The translations under genes were made by a program, and so were the position numbers. This document shows positions 21,158 to 28,814 of a DNA stretch of 64,000 nucleotides, piece by piece (position 1 is the stretch's first letter; every line of letters begins with the position of its first letter). The stretch lies in contig NZ_LPZN01000014.1 of NCBI RefSeq assembly GCF_001646655.1, positions 1 through 64,000 of the forward strand, written 5' to 3'. Source of the DNA: Rhodococcus gordoniae (GTDB lineage Bacteria; Actinomycetota; Actinomycetes; Mycobacteriales; Mycobacteriaceae). Below the pieces are notes generated by a model, which saw only the letters and a program-made list of their open reading frames with translations, ran no database searches and was not told the DNA's origin.

Positions 21158-22201
21158 TCAGGAACGGTCGGTGTCGGTCGCGTCGTCCGGCGATTCCTCG
21201 TAGTACTCCGTGGTCACGACGCGGCGCACCAGGCGCGGCTTGCGCGGTCGATCGTCGTCCGCGCTGCCTGTCGCGGCCGTGTCCGTCTTCGCGTCGGTCG
21301 TGCCCGTGTCGGTGCCGGCCGGCTGCGGCGGCGTGAAGTGCGCCGGCCCCGTCGGCCCCGGACCGACGATCTCCTGCTCACCGCCGGTGCCGCCGGGCGC
21401 CGCGTGGCGGGCGGTGTCCGCCGCCGAGTGTGCGGTGCCGGACGGGTGCGCGGTGCCGGACGGGGCGGCCGGTGTCGACGCGGTATGCCCGGGCATCGAG
21501 TGCTCGAGCGATTCGTCCCTCTGGCCCTCGCTCGGCCGGTAGTTGCCGGCGATCTCCTCACGAGCGACATCGGGCGGCGTCGGCGAATGCCCGGTGCTCG
21601 CGGTGGGCGCATGCCCGGTCCCCGCAGTGGGTGACTGTGCGGTCCCCGCAGTGGGCGACTGTCCTGTTCCCGCCGGCGCTGCGGTGCCGTACGACTCGCC
21701 GGTGTGCGGCGCTCCGGTACTGCCCGGTCCGCCGGCTGCACCACCGACGAGACCGCCACCACCGGCCGTGTTCCGGTCGTCGAGGCCCCTCCGGTCGTCG
21801 GTGAACCCGGTCCGGTCGTCGGTCGACCCAGCCCGCTCGTCCGTGAATCCGCCCCGGTCGCCGGTGGATCCACCCTCTGCATGGGTGTCCCCGAACCGGC
21901 GGTAGTAGCGGTACAGTTCGTCCTCTTCGAGCGGCGTCAGCTCACCGTTCTCGTCGATGTTCGGGGCGCCGGTGATCGTGTCCTTGTCGAAGGGCAGGCG
22001 CACTCCGCTGCTGTCGAGTTCGGCTTCGTCGATGGGGGCGAAGTGCCGGCGTGTGCCGAACAGTCCCGTGACGACGGTGATCCATGCGGGTCGGCCCGTG
22101 TCGTTGTCCAGGTACACCTCTCCGACGCGTCCGAGCTTGTCACCGTCGGGCCCGTACGCGGTGGCGCGAGCGAGGGTGTCGATGTCGTCGTTGCTGATCA
22201 T
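21158..22201 (-). CDS. PRC-barrel domain protein with repeat-rich tail
   Basis: 347 residues. Residues 1-~100 form a PRC-barrel: ATAYGPDGDKLGRVGEVYLD, TGRPAWITVVTGLFGTRRHF, then FAPIDEAELDSSGVRLPFD and the closing LTPLEEDELYRYYRRFGD. The rest is a Gly/Thr/Ala/Asp-rich, probably disordered tail with tandem units (T-D-[DE]-R-x-G-[FS] at ~110-140 and 8-residue units of TAGTxxSP type at ~180-205), ending in a basic PRKPRLVRRVV segment followed by an acidic TTEYYEESPDDATD. Such proteins are often stress-induced in actinobacteria; function is unknown. It starts at ATG 22201, 119 bp from the divergent aminotransferase operator. Confidence 0.85.
   Translation of the reverse strand: MISNDDIDTLARATAYGPDGDKLGRVGEVYLDNDTGRPAWITVVTGLFGTRRHFAPIDEAELDSSGVRLPFDKDTITGAPNIDENGELTPLEEDELYRYYRRFGDTHAEGGSTGDRGGFTDERAGSTDDRTGFTDDRRGLDDRNTAGGGGLVGGAAGGPGSTGAPHTGESYGTAAPAGTGQSPTAGTAQSPTAGTGHAPTASTGHSPTPPDVAREEIAGNYRPSEGQRDESLEHSMPGHTASTPAAPSGTAHPSGTAHSAADTARHAAPGGTGGEQEIVGPGPTGPAHFTPPQPAGTDTGTTDAKTDTAATGSADDDRPRKPRLVRRVVTTEYYEESPDDATDTDRS
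21592..21663. repeat. Three 24-bp tandem repeats in the PRC gene
   Basis: Units begin at 21592, 21616 and 21640; the last two are near-identical (GGTCCCCGCAGTGGGYGACT core). They encode the 8-residue repeat in the disordered tail and may vary in copy number between strains. Confidence 0.75.
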
Positions 22202-22320: not shown

Positions 22321-22332
22321 ATTGTCAACAAT
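22321..22332. promoter_or_regulatory. Putative GntR operator, copy 1 (aminotransferase promoter)
   Basis: The perfect palindrome ATTGTCAACAAT lies 50 bp before the aminotransferase ATG. The identical 12-mer recurs at 26598-26609 in the divergent promoter of the same gene island, which encodes a FadR-type GntR regulator. TTGT-n-ACAA type palindromes are common operators of this family. Confidence 0.65.
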
Positions 22333-22382
22333 CCGACAACAAGCATGAGGGTTCGCTCCCTCGGCTGTTCGGAGGGATCGTC

Positions 22383-23624
22383 ATGACCCGACTGTCACCC
22401 CGCCTGCTACAGGCGACGTCCGTCACCGTCGACCATGCCGAGGGGTGTTACGTCCACGGCACCGACGGACGCCGCTACCTCGACTTCACCGCCGGTATCG
22501 GCGTGACGAGCACCGGGCATTGTCATCCGCACGTCGTCGAAGCCGCGCGCCGGCAGATCGGCTCGCTCATCCACGGGCAGTACACGACCGTGATGCACCG
22601 GCCCCTGCTCGAACTCACCGAACGGCTGGGCACGGTACTGCCCGGAGGGCTCGACTCGTTGTTCTTCGCCAATTCGGGTAGCGAGGCCGTCGAAGCGGCG
22701 TTGCGGCTGGCCCGGCAGGCGACGGGACGCCCCGGAATCGTCGTCTTCCACGGCGGTTTCCACGGCCGGACCGTCGCCGCTGCGACGATGACGACCTCGG
22801 GAACCCGCTTCTCCGCTGGATTCTCACCGCTCATGGGTGGTGTACACGTCGCTCCGTTCCCCACCGCCTATCGATACGGCTGGTCGGAGGAGGAGGCGAC
22901 CGACTTCGCGCTGCAGGAACTGGACTACCTGTTCGCGACCCTGGTGGCACCGGACGAGATCGCGGCCTTCGTCGTCGAACCGGTCCTGGGCGAGGGCGGC
23001 TACGTACCGGGGAACACGCGGTTCTTCCGCGGATTGCGGCAACGGGCCGACGAGCACGGCATCCTGCTCGTCTTCGACGAGATCCAGACCGGTTTCGGCC
23101 GCACCGGAAAGTTCTTCGGCCACCAGCACTTCGGAGTGCGACCCGACGTCATCACCATCGCCAAGGGGCTCGCGAGCGGTTTCCCGTTGTCGGGTATCGC
23201 CGCCTCCGAGGAGCTCATGGAGCGCGCCCGCCCGGGATCGCAGGGCGGGACGTACGGGGCGAATGCCGTCTCGTGCGCGGCGGCCGTGGCCACTCTCGAC
23301 GTGATCGAGAAGGAAGGGCTCGTCGACAACGCGGCCACGCGTGGACGCGAACTGCTCTCCGGTGCGCGGGAGCGCGCGACCGGCGATATCGGCGACGTGC
23401 GGGGGCTCGGTCTCATGGTGGGCCTCGAATTCACCACCGAGGGGTCTCCCGATCGGGACCGCGCAACCGCCGCACAACAACTCGCATCCCGAAAGGGATT
23501 GCTGCTGTTGACCTGTGGTGCCCACATGAATGTGGTGCGTATGATCCCACCCCTGATCGTCACCGCGCAGCAGATCGATGATGCGCTCGGCATCTGGTCC
23601 GAAGTCCTCGCAGAGGTCCGATAA
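22383..23624 (+). CDS. Class III PLP aminotransferase
   Basis: 413 residues, 4-aminobutyrate/ornithine aminotransferase group. Visible: SGSEAVEAALRLARQATGR and HGGFHGRTVAA (PLP phosphate/ring contacts), LVFDEIQTGFGRTGKF (Asp for the pyridine nitrogen) and the Schiff-base lysine in TIAKGLASGFPLSG. It moves an omega-amino group from an amine or amino acid to an oxoacid, giving a semialdehyde or ketone. ATG 22383 follows GGAGGG. The palindrome ATTGTCAACAAT lies 50 bp upstream. It is followed 22 bp later by the DUF3830 gene, so both form a short operon. Substrate unknown; the amidase next door may provide it. Confidence 0.9.
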   Translation: MTRLSPRLLQATSVTVDHAEGCYVHGTDGRRYLDFTAGIGVTSTGHCHPHVVEAARRQIGSLIHGQYTTVMHRPLLELTERLGTVLPGGLDSLFFANSGSEAVEAALRLARQATGRPGIVVFHGGFHGRTVAAATMTTSGTRFSAGFSPLMGGVHVAPFPTAYRYGWSEEEATDFALQELDYLFATLVAPDEIAAFVVEPVLGEGGYVPGNTRFFRGLRQRADEHGILLVFDEIQTGFGRTGKFFGHQHFGVRPDVITIAKGLASGFPLSGIAASEELMERARPGSQGGTYGANAVSCAAAVATLDVIEKEGLVDNAATRGRELLSGARERATGDIGDVRGLGLMVGLEFTTEGSPDRDRATAAQQLASRKGLLLLTCGAHMNVVRMIPPLIVTAQQIDDALGIWSEVLAEVR

Positions 23625-23646
23625 TCCGTCGAACGAGGGAGTCCGC

Positions 23647-24141
23647 GTGGCCCGATACATCACGATCGCTCTCGACAAGCGCGACATCACGTGCAGAGCA
23701 CGACTTCTCGACGACGAAGCGCCGCTCACCTGCGCGGCGGTGTGGGATGCGTTGCCGCAGAGCGGTGCCGCCTTCCATGCCAAGTACGCTCGCAACGAGT
23801 TGTACACCCTGGTGCCGAGGATCGCCGGGGCACCGCACCGGGAGAATCCGACGGTGACGCCGATCCCCGGCGACGTGTGCCTGTTCGATTTCGAACCGTG
23901 GGAGATCGGCAATCCCGCCTATGGCTACGAACCCGGCTCGCAGGCCCATGCCTCGCAGGGGGCGACCGATCTCGCGTTGTTCTACGGACGGAACAATCTG
24001 CTGCTCAACGGCGACGTGGGCTGGGTGCCGGGCAATGTCTTCGCGAGCATCGAGGACGGCCTGCCCGAACTCGCCGTCGCGTGCAACGACCTGTGGATCG
24101 GGGGTGTCGTAGGGGAGACGCTGAGCTTCGCCCGCGCGTAG
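23647..24141 (+). CDS. DUF3830 (cyclophilin-like) protein
   Basis: 164 residues. The sequence matches the DUF3830 family: N-terminal ITIALDKRDITCRARLLDDE, APLTCAAVWDALP, then a central PGDVCLFDFEPWEIGNPAY and C-terminal GNVFASIEDGLPELAVACN. These proteins have a small cyclophilin-like beta barrel; many are encoded next to amidases and Asp/Glu racemase-like genes, as here, but no activity is established. GTG 23647 follows a GAGGGAG site. It is the second gene of the aminotransferase operon and is followed by a hairpin at 24153. Confidence 0.83.
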   Translation: MARYITIALDKRDITCRARLLDDEAPLTCAAVWDALPQSGAAFHAKYARNELYTLVPRIAGAPHRENPTVTPIPGDVCLFDFEPWEIGNPAYGYEPGSQAHASQGATDLALFYGRNNLLLNGDVGWVPGNVFASIEDGLPELAVACNDLWIGGVVGETLSFARA

Positions 24142-24152
24142 ACGGGCGCCGA

Positions 24153-24189
24153 ACCGAACGGTACCGCGCGATGTGCGGTGCCGTTCGGT
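24153..24189. terminator. Hairpin terminator between DUF3830 and amidase genes
   Basis: ACCGAACGGTACCGC pairs with GCGGTGCCGTTCGGT with one G-T mismatch over a 7-base loop. It lies between the converging stop codons (24141 and 24193) and can act on both strands. Confidence 0.75.
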
Positions 24190-24192
24190 GGG

Positions 24193-25563
24193 TCAGCTCA
24201 GTGCGTGCTCGGCGAATCTCGCCACCGCGAGCAGCAGGTCGTCCGAGTGCCGCGGCCCGACGATCTGCAGACCCACGGGCAGGCCCGCCGAGGTCGTCCC
24301 GACGGGCAGGCTGATGGCGGGCTGCTGCGTGAGATTGAAGGGATAGGTGAACGGGGTCCACTGCGGCCACGAGGTCAGCGACGACCCCGGCGGCACGTCG
24401 TGGCCGGCCTCGAATGCGGGGATCGGCATCGTCGGGGTGAGCAGAACGTTGAACTTCTGGTGGAACATCCCCATCGTGATGCCGACCGCCGCCGCGACCG
24501 CGCGGGCTTCGAGATAGTCCACGGCACCGAGTTGTTCGCCGTGCGACCATACGCGTCCGAGTCCGGGGTCCACCTTGTCCCGCGTGCCCTCGGGGAAGGT
24601 CTTCAGCATCGTGGCTGCGCCTGCCGCCCAGAGGTTCTCGAAAGCCTCGAGCGGGTCGGTGAAACCGGGATCGGCGGCGGTCACCCGTAGTCCTGCCTCG
24701 TCGAGCACGCGGACCGCCCGGTCGACGATCTCACCCACCTCTGGATCGACGTGGACGTATCCGAGGGTCTTCGAGTAGGCGACGTCCATCCCCACCACCT
24801 CACGATGGAGGCCACCGCGGAAGGTCGTGAGGGGCGGTGCCAGCGCTGTCGGATCCCGGGGATCGGGCAGGGAGAGAATGTCGGTGAGCAGCGCCGCGTC
24901 CTCGACCGTCCGGGTGATCGGCCCGGCATGCGCGAGCGGCCCGAACGGGCTGGCGGGGAAGATCGGGATCCGCCCGTGGGTGGGCTTGAATCCGACGACG
25001 CCGCAGAACGACGCGGGGATGCGGATGCTGCCCCCACCGTCGGTGCCGACGGAGCACGGACCGAATCCGGCCGCGACCGCCGCCGCGCTGCCCCCGGACG
25101 AGCCACCGGCGGTCTTCGTCGTGTCGGCGGGATTCGTGGTCACCCCGTAGAGTGCCGAATCGGTCACCGCCTTCCATGCGATCTCCGGAGTGGTGGTCTT
25201 GCCCACCAACACCATCCCGTCCTCCCGCAGCCGGGCCGCGACCGGGCTGTCGACGTTCCAGTCCTGGTTCTCGTCGACGGCCTGCGAACCTCGCAGGGTC
25301 GGCCATCCGTCGGTGAGGAAGACGTCTTTGATCGAGATGGGGACCCCGTCGAGCAGACCCTTCGAATAACCGGTCCGCCACCGCTCCTCGGACCTACGGG
25401 CCTGGTCGAGTGCCTTCTCCTCGTCGACGAGGCAGAACGAGTTGATCTCGCGGTCGTGGGATGCGATCCGATCGAGCACGGCTCGCGTCACCTCGACGGG
25501 AGACAACTTGCCCGAGGAGAAGGCCGACACGAGTTCGACGGCGGTCATCTCTGTGGGCTCCAT
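24193..25563 (-). CDS. Amidase signature family hydrolase
   Basis: 456 residues. The Ser-cisSer-Lys triad is complete: Lys in VPISIKDVFLTDG, cis-Ser in TAGGSSGGSAAAVAAG and nucleophile Ser in GTDGGGSIRIPASFCG. The C-terminus has the usual PVGLQIVGPRHSDDLLL. It hydrolyses a carboxamide (or related C-N bond) to acid and amine. ATG 25563 is preceded by GAAGGAGGCACG. It follows the dehydrogenase gene by 32 bp on the same strand, so it is the second gene of the leftward arm of the GntR-linked island. The substrate is unknown; a malonamate-, maleamate- or N-acyl-type amide would fit the isomerase-like neighbours. Confidence 0.9.
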   Translation of the reverse strand: MEPTEMTAVELVSAFSSGKLSPVEVTRAVLDRIASHDREINSFCLVDEEKALDQARRSEERWRTGYSKGLLDGVPISIKDVFLTDGWPTLRGSQAVDENQDWNVDSPVAARLREDGMVLVGKTTTPEIAWKAVTDSALYGVTTNPADTTKTAGGSSGGSAAAVAAGFGPCSVGTDGGGSIRIPASFCGVVGFKPTHGRIPIFPASPFGPLAHAGPITRTVEDAALLTDILSLPDPRDPTALAPPLTTFRGGLHREVVGMDVAYSKTLGYVHVDPEVGEIVDRAVRVLDEAGLRVTAADPGFTDPLEAFENLWAAGAATMLKTFPEGTRDKVDPGLGRVWSHGEQLGAVDYLEARAVAAAVGITMGMFHQKFNVLLTPTMPIPAFEAGHDVPPGSSLTSWPQWTPFTYPFNLTQQPAISLPVGTTSAGLPVGLQIVGPRHSDDLLLAVARFAEHALS

Positions 25564-25595
25564 CGTGCCTCCTTCTCGTCGGACGATGCCGACTC

Positions 25596-26570
25596 TCACG
25601 CGCCGGGCACGTAACCCAGCTTCTTGTCCACCACGTTCCGAAGAGGTTCGCCACTGCGGTGACGGTGGAAGTTGTCGACGAAGACGTCCACCAGCGCGTC
25701 GCGCCAGCCGACGAAGTCTCCCGAATTGTGCGGGGTGATCGAGACATTCGGCATGTCCCAGAGCGGATGGTCGTCGGGGAGCGGTTCGACGTCGAGCACG
25801 TCGAGTGCGGCGCCGGAGATCGTGCCGGCCCGCAGTGCCTCGACCAGGTCGCCGGTGCGCACGAGTTCGCCCCGCCCGACGTTGACGAACCGGGCCTGCG
25901 GCTTCATCGCGGCGAACATCCGGGCGTCGAACAGGTGCCGGGTCTGCTCCGTGAGCGGCGCGGCCACGACGACGAAATCGGCGTCGGCCAGGGCGGCCGG
26001 AAGATCGGCGGTCGCGGTGACGCTGCCGAAATCGGGGTCGTCGTGGCGAGGCCGTCGGCCGGAGCCGCGGACCGTCATCCCCACGGCGGAGAGCAGCCGC
26101 GCGATCGCGCGACCGATCGGACCGGTGCCGACGACGAGCACGGAGCGCCCGGCGATGCGTTCGGATTCGCGGTGCTTCCAGATGTGCCCGTGCTGGAGCC
26201 GCAGCGATTCGGGGATGTCCTTGGCGAAGGAGAGTATCTGGGCGAGCACGTATTCGGCGATCGCCCCGTCGAAGACTCCGCGGGAGTTGGTGACGACCAC
26301 GTCGCTGTCGCGCAGCTCGGGGAACATGAGGGCGTCGACCCCGGCCGCGGCGACGTGGATCCATCGCAGGGACGTCGCGGCATGCCAGGCCGCAGGCAGG
26401 GCATCGGTGAGGAAGTCGTACGCGAACAGGATGTCGGCACCGTCGAGCGCATCGGCCAGACCGGCGGCGTCGGTACAGCGCACCGCGGCATGTTCGGCCA
26501 CCGGGGTCATCCGCGCGCGGTCCGGCACGGCTTCGGCATGAAGCACTGCAACGACCGGCTCGGCATCCAC
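25596..26570 (-). CDS. D-2-hydroxyacid dehydrogenase family protein
   Basis: 324 residues. Rossmann motif VVGTGPIGRAIARLLSAVG, then catalytic Arg in FVNVGRGELVRTGDL, Glu in DVLDVEPLPDDHPL and His in SITPHNSGDF. It should reduce a 2-oxoacid to the D-2-hydroxyacid (or the reverse) with NAD(P)H. GTG 26570 is chosen because it directly begins the first beta strand (VVAVLHAE); the frame stays open for 48 more codons, but this would run through the palindrome at 26598-26609 and the promoter region. First gene of the leftward arm of the island, divergent from the isomerase-like pair. Confidence 0.87.
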   Translation of the reverse strand: MDAEPVVAVLHAEAVPDRARMTPVAEHAAVRCTDAAGLADALDGADILFAYDFLTDALPAAWHAATSLRWIHVAAAGVDALMFPELRDSDVVVTNSRGVFDGAIAEYVLAQILSFAKDIPESLRLQHGHIWKHRESERIAGRSVLVVGTGPIGRAIARLLSAVGMTVRGSGRRPRHDDPDFGSVTATADLPAALADADFVVVAAPLTEQTRHLFDARMFAAMKPQARFVNVGRGELVRTGDLVEALRAGTISGAALDVLDVEPLPDDHPLWDMPNVSITPHNSGDFVGWRDALVDVFVDNFHRHRSGEPLRNVVDKKLGYVPGA

Positions 26571-26597
26571 GTTGACACCGTAGGAGCGCCTCGTATT

Positions 26598-26609
26598 ATT
26601 GTCAACAAT
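26598..26609. promoter_or_regulatory. Putative GntR operator, copy 2 (divergent promoter)
   Basis: ATTGTCAACAAT, identical to the palindrome at 22321-22332, in the 80-bp gap between the leftward dehydrogenase and the rightward isomerase-like gene. Read leftward it contains TTGACA and an AATAAT stretch, which may be promoter elements. Confidence 0.68.
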
Positions 26610-26650
26610 CCTCGAGGCTGAGGGAACTCTCGACGAAGCCGAGGGACCGT

Positions 26651-27391
26651 ATGGAACTGAACATTCCCGAATTCGAAGGTCCTCTGGCTCAGCGGGGCAT
26701 CGGTGTGATCGCACCCTTCGATCTCGCTCTGGAACGAGAATTGTGGCGATGGGCGCCGCTCGAGGTCAGCCTGCACCTCGCTCGGACCCCCTACGAACCG
26801 GTGCCGGTGAGTCGTGCCATGGCCGAACTGGTCTCCGACCGCCGGCACCTGATGGTCGCGACCCGCGACGTCCTGTCGGTGGAACCGGAAGTCGTTGCGT
26901 ATCTGTGTACCTCGGGAAGTTTCGTCAACGGGGTGACCTACGAGAAGGCCCTGTGCGACGCGATCTGCGAGGCGGGCGCCTCGTGCGCGGTGACGACCTC
27001 CGGCGCGCTCCTCGAAGCGCTCCGGAAGCTCGACCTCACCCGCATCTCGGTGATCACTCCCTACGACCGGGAACTCACCGACCTGCTGCGCGACTTCCTG
27101 GACGAAGCCGGGACCGAGGTCGTCCGATCGTCGCATCTCGGCCTGGGCGGCGGCATCTGGAAGGTCAACTACCGCACCATCGCCGAACACATCATCGGGG
27201 CCGACACACCCGATGCGCAGGCGATCTTCGTCAGTTGCACCAACCTGCCGACCTACGACCTGATCGCACCGCTCGAACGGGAACTCGGCAAGCCGGTCCT
27301 CACGGCCAACCAGCTCACCATCTGGGCGTGCCTCGGCCGGATGAAACTGCCCATGACCGGGCCCGGGAAATGGTTGAGAGGAGTCTTCTGA
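26651..27391 (+). CDS. Maleate isomerase-like Asp/Glu racemase superfamily protein
   Basis: 246 residues. Both catalytic cysteines of the family are present, in YLCTSGSFVNG (first half) and VSCTNLPTYD (second half), followed by GKPVLTANQLTIWACL, typical of maleate cis-trans isomerases and arylmalonate decarboxylases. The two-Cys state suits maleate isomerase or a racemase. ATG 26651 starts a rightward three-gene operon (two isomerase-like genes and the GntR regulator) and lies 41 bp after the palindrome. The stop is directly followed by the ATG of the paralogue, suggesting equal synthesis and perhaps a heteromer. Confidence 0.87.
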   Translation: MELNIPEFEGPLAQRGIGVIAPFDLALERELWRWAPLEVSLHLARTPYEPVPVSRAMAELVSDRRHLMVATRDVLSVEPEVVAYLCTSGSFVNGVTYEKALCDAICEAGASCAVTTSGALLEALRKLDLTRISVITPYDRELTDLLRDFLDEAGTEVVRSSHLGLGGGIWKVNYRTIAEHIIGADTPDAQAIFVSCTNLPTYDLIAPLERELGKPVLTANQLTIWACLGRMKLPMTGPGKWLRGVF

Positions 27392-28132
27392 ATGCATCGT
27401 GCCCGCCCGACCGTCGGGATCGTCTACCCGGATCATGCCGCCGAGGACGACTATCCGTTCGCCGCAGAACTCCTGGGGGTGAACCTGCCCGTCGCCCACA
27501 TCTACGGCACCGACCTGCATGCCGTTCCCGAACTCCTCGACCTGGGGAGCCCCGCCAGGCTCGCCGGAGGGGCGGCACAGTTCGCGGGTGAGCGCCTCGA
27601 CGCCCTCGTGTGGGCGTGCACGTCGGGCAGCTTCGTCTACGGGCCCGAGGGGGCACGCACTCAGATCGAGCGGCTCTCCCGGGCTGCCGGGGGTGTGCCC
27701 ACGACGAGCACCGGCATCGCGTTCGTCGCCGCGATCCGGTCGCTCGGGATCACCCGGACGGCCGTGGCGGCGAGTTATCCGCGCGATGTCGCCGACCTGT
27801 TCGTCGCCTTCCTCGCGGACGTCGGCATCGACATCGTGTCGCTCGCGGATGCCGGCATCGACACCGCCGCCGAGGTCGGCGCCCTGACCGGGGAGGCGGT
27901 GCTCGACTTCGTGCGAACCAACGATCACCCCGACGCCCAGGCGGTGCTGGTGCCCGACACCGCGATGCACACGCTGCGGATCGTGCGGGAGCTCGAGAAG
28001 GAGACCGGCAAACCGGTCCTCACCGCCAACCAGGTCACCGTATGGCACGGCCTGGAACTCGCCGGATATACAGTGGGATGCCCGGAGCTGGGCTCGCTGT
28101 TCGAGGAGGATGCCGATCATGGTGCTCGGTGA
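27392..28132 (+). CDS. Maleate isomerase-like paralogue lacking the second catalytic Cys
   Basis: 246 residues, paralogue of the preceding gene with the same length. The first cysteine motif is kept (WACTSGSFVYG), but the second, SCTNLPT in the neighbour, reads VPDTAMHT, so the second catalytic Cys is lost while the following GKPVLTANQVTVWHGLE is conserved. It may be a decarboxylase-like or one-Cys enzyme, or a subunit that works only with its neighbour. ATG 27392 abuts the upstream stop; its end overlaps the start of the GntR gene by 14 bp. Confidence 0.85.
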   Translation: MHRARPTVGIVYPDHAAEDDYPFAAELLGVNLPVAHIYGTDLHAVPELLDLGSPARLAGGAAQFAGERLDALVWACTSGSFVYGPEGARTQIERLSRAAGGVPTTSTGIAFVAAIRSLGITRTAVAASYPRDVADLFVAFLADVGIDIVSLADAGIDTAAEVGALTGEAVLDFVRTNDHPDAQAVLVPDTAMHTLRIVRELEKETGKPVLTANQVTVWHGLELAGYTVGCPELGSLFEEDADHGAR

Positions 28133-28814
28133 TCTGGGAGATCTACGTCCTGTCACCCGTCCGTCCACGGCCGAGCTCATCGCCGAGCAGATCAGGTCGG
28201 CCATCGTCCGGGGCGTGCTCGCCCCCGGCGCGCAGCTGGGCGAAGCCGAACTCGCGGCGCACTTCCAGGTCTCCCGTGGGCCGCTGCGGGAAGCCATGCA
28301 GCGGTTGCTGTCCGAAGGACTGCTCTACAGCATCCGCAATCGCGGGATCTTCGTCACCCAGCTCACCTTCGACGACGTCGTCGACATCTACCGCAGCCGC
28401 CGGGTCATCGAGGGTGGCGCCCTCGACCTGGTGCTGAACGGCCGTCGCGAGCAGACGTGGAAGGCTCTCGAACTCGCGATCGACGAGATGCGCACCGCCG
28501 CCGAGCGCGAGGACGCCACCGGTGTCTCGGACGGCGACCGTCGTTTCCACGAGATCCTCGTGTCGAGCGCGGAGAGTCCGCGGCTCGTGCGGGCTGCCCG
28601 TACCCTGCTCGTCGAGACACGAATGTGCCTCGGCGCGTTGCAGACCACCTATCCCGACCTGCACGTGCAGGTGGACGAGCACGTCGTGCTCCGGGAGGCG
28701 ATCCGTACCGCCGACCGGGACGATGTGCGGCGACTGCTCGACGAGCACCTGCACGACACGGTCACCCGGCTCCGCGAGCGTCAGGACGTCGACGGCGTGA
28801 TCGCCTCGAGCTGA
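28119..28814 (+). CDS. GntR-family regulator (FadR/FCD type)
   Basis: 231 residues. N-terminal winged helix: AELIAEQIRSAIVRGVLAPG and FQVSRGPLREAMQRLLSEGL (GntR signature, residues ~20-75), then an all-helical FCD domain with conserved acid/His positions (RRVIEGGALDLVL, RRFHEILVSS, HVVLREAI, HLHDTV), likely binding a carboxylate with a metal. ATG 28119 is preferred over ATG 28110 because AGGAGG at 28104-28109 is nine bases before it and would abut the other. Encoded at the end of the isomerase-like operon; most likely controls the island through the two ATTGTCAACAAT palindromes, responding to a pathway acid. Confidence 0.9.
   Translation: MVLGDLGDLRPVTRPSTAELIAEQIRSAIVRGVLAPGAQLGEAELAAHFQVSRGPLREAMQRLLSEGLLYSIRNRGIFVTQLTFDDVVDIYRSRRVIEGGALDLVLNGRREQTWKALELAIDEMRTAAEREDATGVSDGDRRFHEILVSSAESPRLVRAARTLLVETRMCLGALQTTYPDLHVQVDEHVVLREAIRTADRDDVRRLLDEHLHDTVTRLRERQDVDGVIASS

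Follow-up and report, generated by a model that had tools for sequence, protein, structure and literature searches.

Ectoine is a salt-stress protectant, and ectoines are sold commercially. The closest described system to the one reported here is the proteobacterial cluster for ectoine and 5-hydroxyectoine (ehuABCD or uehABC, eutABCDE/doeAB, asnC, ssd, atf and enuR). In the available part of a 2018 review, ectoine consumers, as recognized by EutD, are restricted to Proteobacteria, and EutABC are proposed to invert, dehydrate and reduce 5-hydroxyectoine to ectoine, steps that are called not biochemically evaluated (PMC5924519). A 2026 paper, likewise available in part, describes tentative EutD clusters in further phyla, found with EutD and EutB as queries (PMC13188858). 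Here we describe a seven-gene island in a 64,000-nucleotide stretch of the genome of the soil actinobacterium Rhodococcus gordoniae (contig NZ_LPZN01000014.1, positions 1 to 64,000; hereafter the window), and we propose, with a probability of roughly 55%, that it serves to break down an ectoine-type tetrahydropyrimidine osmolyte independently of EutD, under the control of its own FCD-type GntR repressor at GATTGTYRACAATC-like operators.

The island resembles the proteobacterial cluster in having EutA-like proteins, a class III aminotransferase that is accompanied in relatives by a succinate-semialdehyde dehydrogenase (SSADH)-like aldehyde dehydrogenase (ALDH), and a regulator of the GntR superfamily, as well as in its association with an Ehu importer, encoded beside the module in four genomes of a genus to which we gave the label g45 and elsewhere in the window genome (G000, 4.82 Mb). 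In contrast to that cluster, it is without EutD, EutE, EutB and EutC, and has a DUF3830 protein, an amidase and a D-2-hydroxyacid dehydrogenase (HDH) instead; furthermore, it encodes two EutA-like paralogues (MI1 and MI2), and its regulator is of the FCD rather than the MocR type. With the tentative EutD clusters of Gram-positives, which come partly from the same phylum, it has in common an amidohydrolase, an aldehyde dehydrogenase and varied transporters; the words amidase, DUF, hydroxyacid, Rhodococcus, Streptomyces and Arthrobacter are absent from the main text of that paper as far as it was available (PMC13188858). The open-licence literature searched, which included the available parts of PMC13188858, PMC5924519 and PMC4996985, yielded no account of a pathway made up of these seven genes, nor any occurrence of the name DUF3830. 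A preliminary description of the window had recognized no pathway, which was fair from the sequence alone, but comparison with other genomes places the module beside genes for ectoine and hydroxyectoine uptake and catabolism.

All seven families were identified with Pfam or NCBIfam between 22383 and 28814, in three transcription units, much as the preliminary description had named and grouped them, except that its maleate-isomerase label is only half right. The features of the island are as follows.

22321-22332: operator 1, ATTGTCAACAAT (arms ATTGT/ACAAT, core CA), before the aminotransferase gene
22383-23624, plus strand: class III (omega-amino acid type) aminotransferase, 413 amino acids (PF00202 397.7 bits; PRK08117 479.5 bits, below its cut-off of 574)
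23647-24141, plus strand: DUF3830 protein, 164 amino acids, GTG start (PF12903 199 bits, cut-off 26)
24193-25563, minus strand: amidase-signature hydrolase, 456 amino acids, with a GGSSGGS motif that we take to be catalytic (PRK06169 749.4 bits, cut-off 506)
25596 to about 26576, minus strand: HDH, start uncertain, likely GTG (PF02826 180.4 bits)
26572-26599, plus strand: putative sigma-70-like promoter TTGACA-16-TATTAT for MI1-MI2-gntR, by consensus match only; its -10 element overlaps operator 2
26598-26609: operator 2, ATTGTCAACAAT, in the divergent promoter; its minus strand contains TTGACA
26651-27391, plus strand: MI1, Asp/Glu-racemase superfamily, EutA/maleate-isomerase-like, C86 and C196 both conserved
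27392-28132, plus strand: MI2, paralogue of MI1, EutA/arylmalonate decarboxylase (AMDase)-like, C76 kept, Asp189 in place of the second cysteine
28110-28814, plus strand: GntR/FCD transcriptional regulator (winged helix PF00392 63.1 bits and FCD domain PF07729 71.0 bits, both over cut-off)

As had been claimed for it, the island interrupts a sterol-degradation region, since HsaD, HsaC and HsaB score over cut-off upstream and FadD3 does so downstream. Its relatives were taken from genome contigs as the best 80 of at least 569 DUF3830-related stretches (80 loci, 1.479 Mb); they come from Nocardia, Rhodococcus, Hoyosella, Janibacter and Ruania, and the closest DUF3830 proteins among the matches listed are those of Rhodococcus. 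Genes in these loci were called mechanically (composition-based, at least 80-120 amino acids), and product names are readings of translations unless a family search is cited. With the exclusion of ten of the 80 loci, which have less than 7 kb beyond the DUF3830 gene, all seven genes are present in 61 of the 70 that remain; of the other nine, four are truncated by the locus end, and in five no genes of the set but those for the aminotransferase and DUF3830 are seen within about 10 kb. The seven families do, therefore, co-occur in other genomes. Farther off in the phylum the gene order is shuffled and the set is largely kept.

The two copies of ATTGTCAACAAT, previously reported before the aminotransferase gene (22321) and in the divergent promoter (26598), are confirmed, but the site is not the perfect palindrome it was said to be, because its reverse complement is ATTGTTGACAAT: only the arms pair, leaving the central CA unpaired. 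At up to two mismatches the window holds four strand-wise matches, as against a mean of 0.68 in shuffled sequence (one of 100 shuffles reached four). In the relatives, exact ATTGTNNACAAT lies within 150 bp upstream of the aminotransferase gene in all 77 assessable loci; of the 67 loci assessable for the divergent promoter between MI1 and HDH, 57 have the exact site and ten keep only the TTGTNNACAA core (a locus was excluded if it had less than 150 bp of upstream sequence or if the match began after the first 10 residues: three of the 80 for the aminotransferase and 13 of the 80, including loci without MI1, for MI1). Altogether, 134 of the 135 exact ATTGTNNACAAT sites in the 80 loci fall in the two island promoters; the other one (L006) lies upstream of a partial aminotransferase match and was for that reason left unassigned by the script. 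Among 18 congeneric genomes, the window genome included, ATTGTYRACAAT occurs in all 13 that carry DUF3830 (2-3 sites each) and in none of the five that do not, and a backwards control pattern had no match across the same 18; in a separate operator scan of 12 genomes the backwards control matched only in G032. The island is a real, conserved and co-regulated module, and the earlier view that it forms one regulon is strongly supported by the co-occurrence of its genes and by the conservation of the operator across relatives and congeners.

A GntR regulator is encoded in most relatives read. The GntR protein is presumed to be a repressor that acts at the two operators, to which it would bind; operator 2 is overlapped by the near-consensus promoter (11 of 12 consensus matches; shuffle mean 0.0), an arrangement as for a repressor, and we assume that induction would be by a pathway intermediate. 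The window genome has the exact operator sequence once more, at G000:C38:49783-49794 (L099 8784-8795), just downstream of an enoyl-CoA-hydratase-like open reading frame and with a weaker flanking match. Third copies in the congeners G002, G004 and G017 stand ahead of a flavoprotein-ALDH gene pair, and that of G011, inside a thiolase-like reading frame, was set aside as probably due to chance.

In 60 of the 75 relatives with room for it, the aminotransferase gene is transcribed divergently from one for an SSADH-like ALDH at least 60% identical to the L007 protein, and the island aminotransferase therefore probably acts on a terminal amine. The ALDH of the relatives is 45% identical to Ssd. Although conserved in the relatives, this partner is absent from the window. 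A copy at least 82% identical is kept in four of the 13 congeners with DUF3830 and not in G000, which points to a loss in G000, where the best match is 60% identical and lies on another contig. A gene of the tartrate dehydrogenase family is present in 29 of 98 clustered loci and adjoins the ALDH gene in 22 of these 29; the one member checked scored over cut-off. In L154, L157, L158, L235 and L249 the ALDH is accompanied by a flavoprotein, which reaches 477.5 bits with the D-2-hydroxyglutarate dehydrogenase model, below its cut-off of 1350. Where those 60 relatives have the ALDH gene, the window encodes a PRC-barrel-like repetitive protein, named from its translation (21158-22201).

The association with ectoine-type genes is physical in the four g45 genomes, in which the genes for DUF3830, amidase, HDH, MI1 and MI2 are divergent from adjoining EhuBCDA genes. 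EhuB scores over its NCBIfam cut-off in all four and, in L134, EhuC (223, cut-off 196.95) and EhuA (357, cut-off 345.4) pass as well; of the 11 g45 genomes sampled, ten have EhuB over cut-off, with MI2 within about 5 kb in all ten. Within the genus, EhuB is over cut-off in 11 of the 13 congeners with DUF3830 and in none of the five without (Fisher p 0.0025, inflated by relatedness); the two exceptions are G012, without a match, and G005, where the match is split and the assembly 75% complete. The phylum sample comprised 396 genomes, 43 of them with DUF3830, and the 19 that were classed as type 1 (at least 187 bits) were compared with the other 377. EhuB is over cut-off in 12 of these 19 island genomes versus 20 of 377, and ectD, for hydroxyectoine, in 13 of 19 versus 17 of 377, as well as in one of the 12 genomes with EutD above 410 bits; within the genus, ectD was uninformative as a discriminator, being over cut-off in 15 of 18 genomes. 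The window genome itself encodes an ectoine-type importer, with EhuB over cut-off near a contig end (G000:C18, L223) and EhuCDA-like genes beside it. Alternative transporters are a ProP-like protein in L138 (469.7 bits, below the cut-off of 544) and a BCCT protein in L140 (TIGR00842, over cut-off).

The operator also links the module to EutD-like genes. In G068, the ATTGTNNACAAT sites of the whole genome number eight. Two of them lie just upstream of the DUF3830/aminotransferase genes, and one each just upstream of the genes for HDH, a EutD-like hydrolase (416.5 bits with TIGR02993, cut-off 613), an MHS-type transporter, GntR/MI2, MI1/RidA-like protein, and EhuB; the MHS-type and RidA-like labels are readings of translations. 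In G355, the operator stands ahead of genes for an aminotransferase (67% identical to that of the island), a flavoprotein, an ALDH, a EutD-like protein, a pyridoxal phosphate (PLP) aminotransferase and an M20-like protein; DUF3830 is absent from this cluster and HDH is about 1.2 kb away, and as judged from its genes G355 has the same trunk with another front end. Both genomes look like bearers of Gram-positive EutD clusters that share the trunk and operator of the island. EutD above 410 bits was found in one of the 19 island genomes (G068) versus 11 of 377 (p 0.45), and a profile search with TIGR02993 found it over the cut-off of 613 in none of the 19 versus six of 377; in G000, the best TIGR02993 match for EutD/DoeA has an E-value of 2.9e-18 and stays below those 613 bits. 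Because of the p-value of 0.45, we claim absence of EutD and not avoidance, and the idea that EutD and the island are mutually exclusive was rejected. An annotated case is Mesorhizobium sp. AR02, where no more than 10 kb separates the gene for an HDH homologue (46.8% identical, 77% of the query) from doeA, ectB and the genes for ectoine synthase and a PLP aminotransferase.

A close homologue of the DUF3830 protein has a solved structure, PDB 3kop (phmmer E 3.9e-65, about 62% identical), which is the DUF3830 protein of Arthrobacter sp. FB24 and is named only as a cyclophilin-like-fold protein. When a model of low confidence (mean predicted local distance difference test, pLDDT, 62.7) was searched with Foldseek, 3kop came first, followed by the Pictet-Spenglerases KslB and McbB; owing to that pLDDT these neighbours are a lead only, and the likeness is one of fold (best E 4.4e-6 at 16% identity), KslB and McbB being longer and 13-18% identical. 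In an alignment of ten DUF3830 proteins, seven of type 1 and three of type 2, His44 and Glu66 are shared by all. A search of plasmids for DUF3830 gave no match. The type-2 proteins form a shorter subfamily (about 140 amino acids) in other Actinomycetota; in L139, L146 and L148 their neighbours, by translation, resemble allantoinase, allantoate amidohydrolase or uricase, and the literature consulted assigns the subfamily no part in purine or ureide breakdown. In L147 (9334-10812, G237), three DUF3830 genes follow one another in what may be one operon, next to genes for an ABC transporter and an amidohydrolase-like protein.

MI1 and MI2 are both assigned to Amdase by Pfam, and the best curated NCBIfam model for either of them is EutA (TIGR02990; 98.5 and 104.9 bits, respectively), both scores being far below its cut-off of 318. 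They share a superfamily with maleate cis-trans isomerase (2xec, 4fq7) and arylmalonate decarboxylase (3ixm, 3ixl), from which they differ in having EutA as their best curated model. The nearest solved structure is 2xec for MI1, which aligns both of its cysteines with it, and 3ixl for MI2. In the relatives (L001 and L002, which represent the window, are excluded, and some of the counted loci overlap), MI1 has the first cysteine in 94 of 94 rows and the second in 93, one being undetermined, whereas MI2 has cysteine in 90 rows and serine in eight at the first position, and aspartic acid in 95 and glycine in three at the second (n = 98); its aspartic acid sits where AMDases have Cys188. Rhizobium EutA carries both superfamily cysteines, like MI1. 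The former designation of two maleate-isomerase-like proteins thus suits MI1, by its nearness to 2xec, but not MI2, which is without the second of the two catalytic cysteines and nearest to 3ixl, and for neither is it the best model. Since MI1 keeps both cysteines and MI2 does not, we would expect deprotonation to be carried out by MI1, as the active partner, and MI2 to have a specialized or structural part.

We infer the substrate class, from gene context, and every reaction; 5-hydroxyectoine appears a more likely substrate than ectoine. Uptake would come first, through an Ehu operon located elsewhere in the G000 genome. MI1 and MI2 would work on the alpha carbon of the carboxylate and contribute to removal of the 5-hydroxyl, and DUF3830 would open the cyclic amidine, one nitrogen being lost, to give 4-acetamido-2-oxobutyrate. 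This would be converted to (R)-4-acetamido-2-hydroxybutyrate by HDH; the amidase, a proposed N-acetyl amidohydrolase, would split off acetate, the aminotransferase would turn the terminal amine into (R)-malate semialdehyde, and the SSADH-like ALDH (in G000, only the 60% identical gene on the other contig) would form D-malate. Depending on the species, D-malate might then be oxidized by a tartrate/D-malate dehydrogenase or by the D-2-hydroxyglutarate-dehydrogenase-like flavoprotein; enzymes of both types accept D-malate. Hydrolysis of a dehydrated ring to a 2-oxo acid would explain the presence of HDH, of a deacylating amidase, of an omega-aminotransferase with an ALDH, and of two unrelated possible oxidizers of D-malate, although we consider this order of steps doubtful. 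The chemistry of the preliminary description (amide hydrolysis, deamination, reduction and isomerization of a cis-diacid, in that order) finds no support, as MI2 lacks one cysteine and an ALDH gene stands beside the aminotransferase gene in those 60 of 75 relatives; its amide hydrolysis and reduction are retained here. A more specific version, which we put forward tentatively and regard as unlikely to hold in full, is that DUF3830 and MI1/MI2 constitute a second, EutD-independent way of opening the ectoine ring: 5-hydroxyectoine would be dehydrated across C4-C5 and the enamine ring hydrolysed by DUF3830, whose fold would be akin to that of the imine-forming Pictet-Spenglerases, to 4-acetamido-2-oxobutyrate, so that carbon would exit as D-malate, not L-aspartate, and hydroxyectoine-making actinobacteria could recover it.

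If a EutD-less route of this kind exists, (i) ectoine consumers among Rhodococcus, Nocardia and their relatives would be invisible to EutD-based surveys; (ii) DUF3830 would have a first testable function; (iii) the open 5-hydroxyectoine steps would gain a concrete case; and (iv) an overlooked food source in this actinobacterial group would be explained. As ectoines are commercial products, the island enzymes may also have practical use.

A number of observations weigh against an ectoine-type substrate, and some of them would suit a different nitrogen-containing substrate, cyclic or an amide (hydantoin, ureide, pyrimidine derivative or non-ectoine osmolyte), on the ring of which DUF3830 and the EutA-like pair would act, the Ehu and EutD links reflecting shared operators and a broad importer; we regard this explanation as a possible, if not a probable, one. 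The DUF3830 family is not ectoine-specific, because three of the seven type-2 loci read (L139, L146, L148) lie, by translation, in uric acid/allantoin clusters with uricase-, allantoinase- and allantoate amidohydrolase-like genes. Furthermore, the aminotransferase occurs near hydantoinase-like genes in Shinella, the transporters differ (Ehu, MHS, BCCT), and on two Arthrobacter plasmids and Rhodococcus jostii pRHL1 the operators and the aminotransferase, ALDH and GntR genes are reused with other genes and without DUF3830. However, in both G068 and G355 an operator of the same kind links trunk and EutD-like genes, in g45 Ehu genes that score over cut-off lie directly beside the five-gene core, and EhuB follows DUF3830 within the genus, all of which argues for an ectoine-type compound. 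Further points on the opposing side are that the ehu genes of G000 are unlinked to the island and have no operator; that seven of the 19 island genomes are without EhuB over cut-off; that in six g45 genomes (L225-L230), which have Ehu and MI2 and, in four cases, also HDH, DUF3830 and the amidase were undetected; that the operator result for G355 covers one of four sites; that the island genome G158 also encodes a DoeA_2-like protein (219.9 bits, cut-off 575), so that a hydrolase may be present in some island genomes as well; that the aminotransferase is only 31% identical to Rhizobium Atf; that EutB, EutC and EutE are not among the seven island genes, the genome itself not having been searched for them; and that the co-occurrence p-values are inflated by kinship among the sampled genomes. 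To these may be added the shortfall of MI1 and MI2 against TIGR02990 and the fact that the nearest solved structures for MI1 are maleate isomerases. In L225-L230 the module may be reduced, or the EutA-like protein may be put to another use.

Nearness to 2xec, with both cysteines aligned, is also what speaks for the maleamate/maleate route of the preliminary description, in which an amide would be hydrolysed and a cis-diacid isomerized to fumarate by the two MI proteins; with aspartic acid or glycine at the second position of MI2 in 98 of 98 rows, EutA as the best curated model for both proteins, and the Ehu and EutD links left unexplained, we consider this route highly improbable. Scarcely better is the case for pantothenate catabolism, a reading raised by the amidase, the ALDH and the tartrate dehydrogenase. 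Pantothenase splits pantothenate into pantoate and beta-alanine; the amidase would be this enzyme, the aminotransferase and ALDH would handle beta-alanine, and the tartrate-dehydrogenase-like enzyme would act on 3,3-dimethylmalate. Consistent with it, an amidase-signature hydrolase, an omega-aminotransferase, an ALDH and a tartrate-dehydrogenase-family enzyme are encoded together in many Nocardia loci, but DUF3830, MI1, MI2 and Ehu would be left without a role and the EutD-type variant would be unexplained, and nothing was found for it in the literature searched; it was dropped on the Ehu and EutD evidence.

On the two Arthrobacter plasmids (L248 and L251), the operator type and the aminotransferase, ALDH and GntR genes stand beside genes for a flavin adenine dinucleotide (FAD) oxidoreductase, a HAD dehalogenase, a tartrate dehydrogenase and an amino-acid ABC transporter, a set that probably represents a sister pathway for another substrate.

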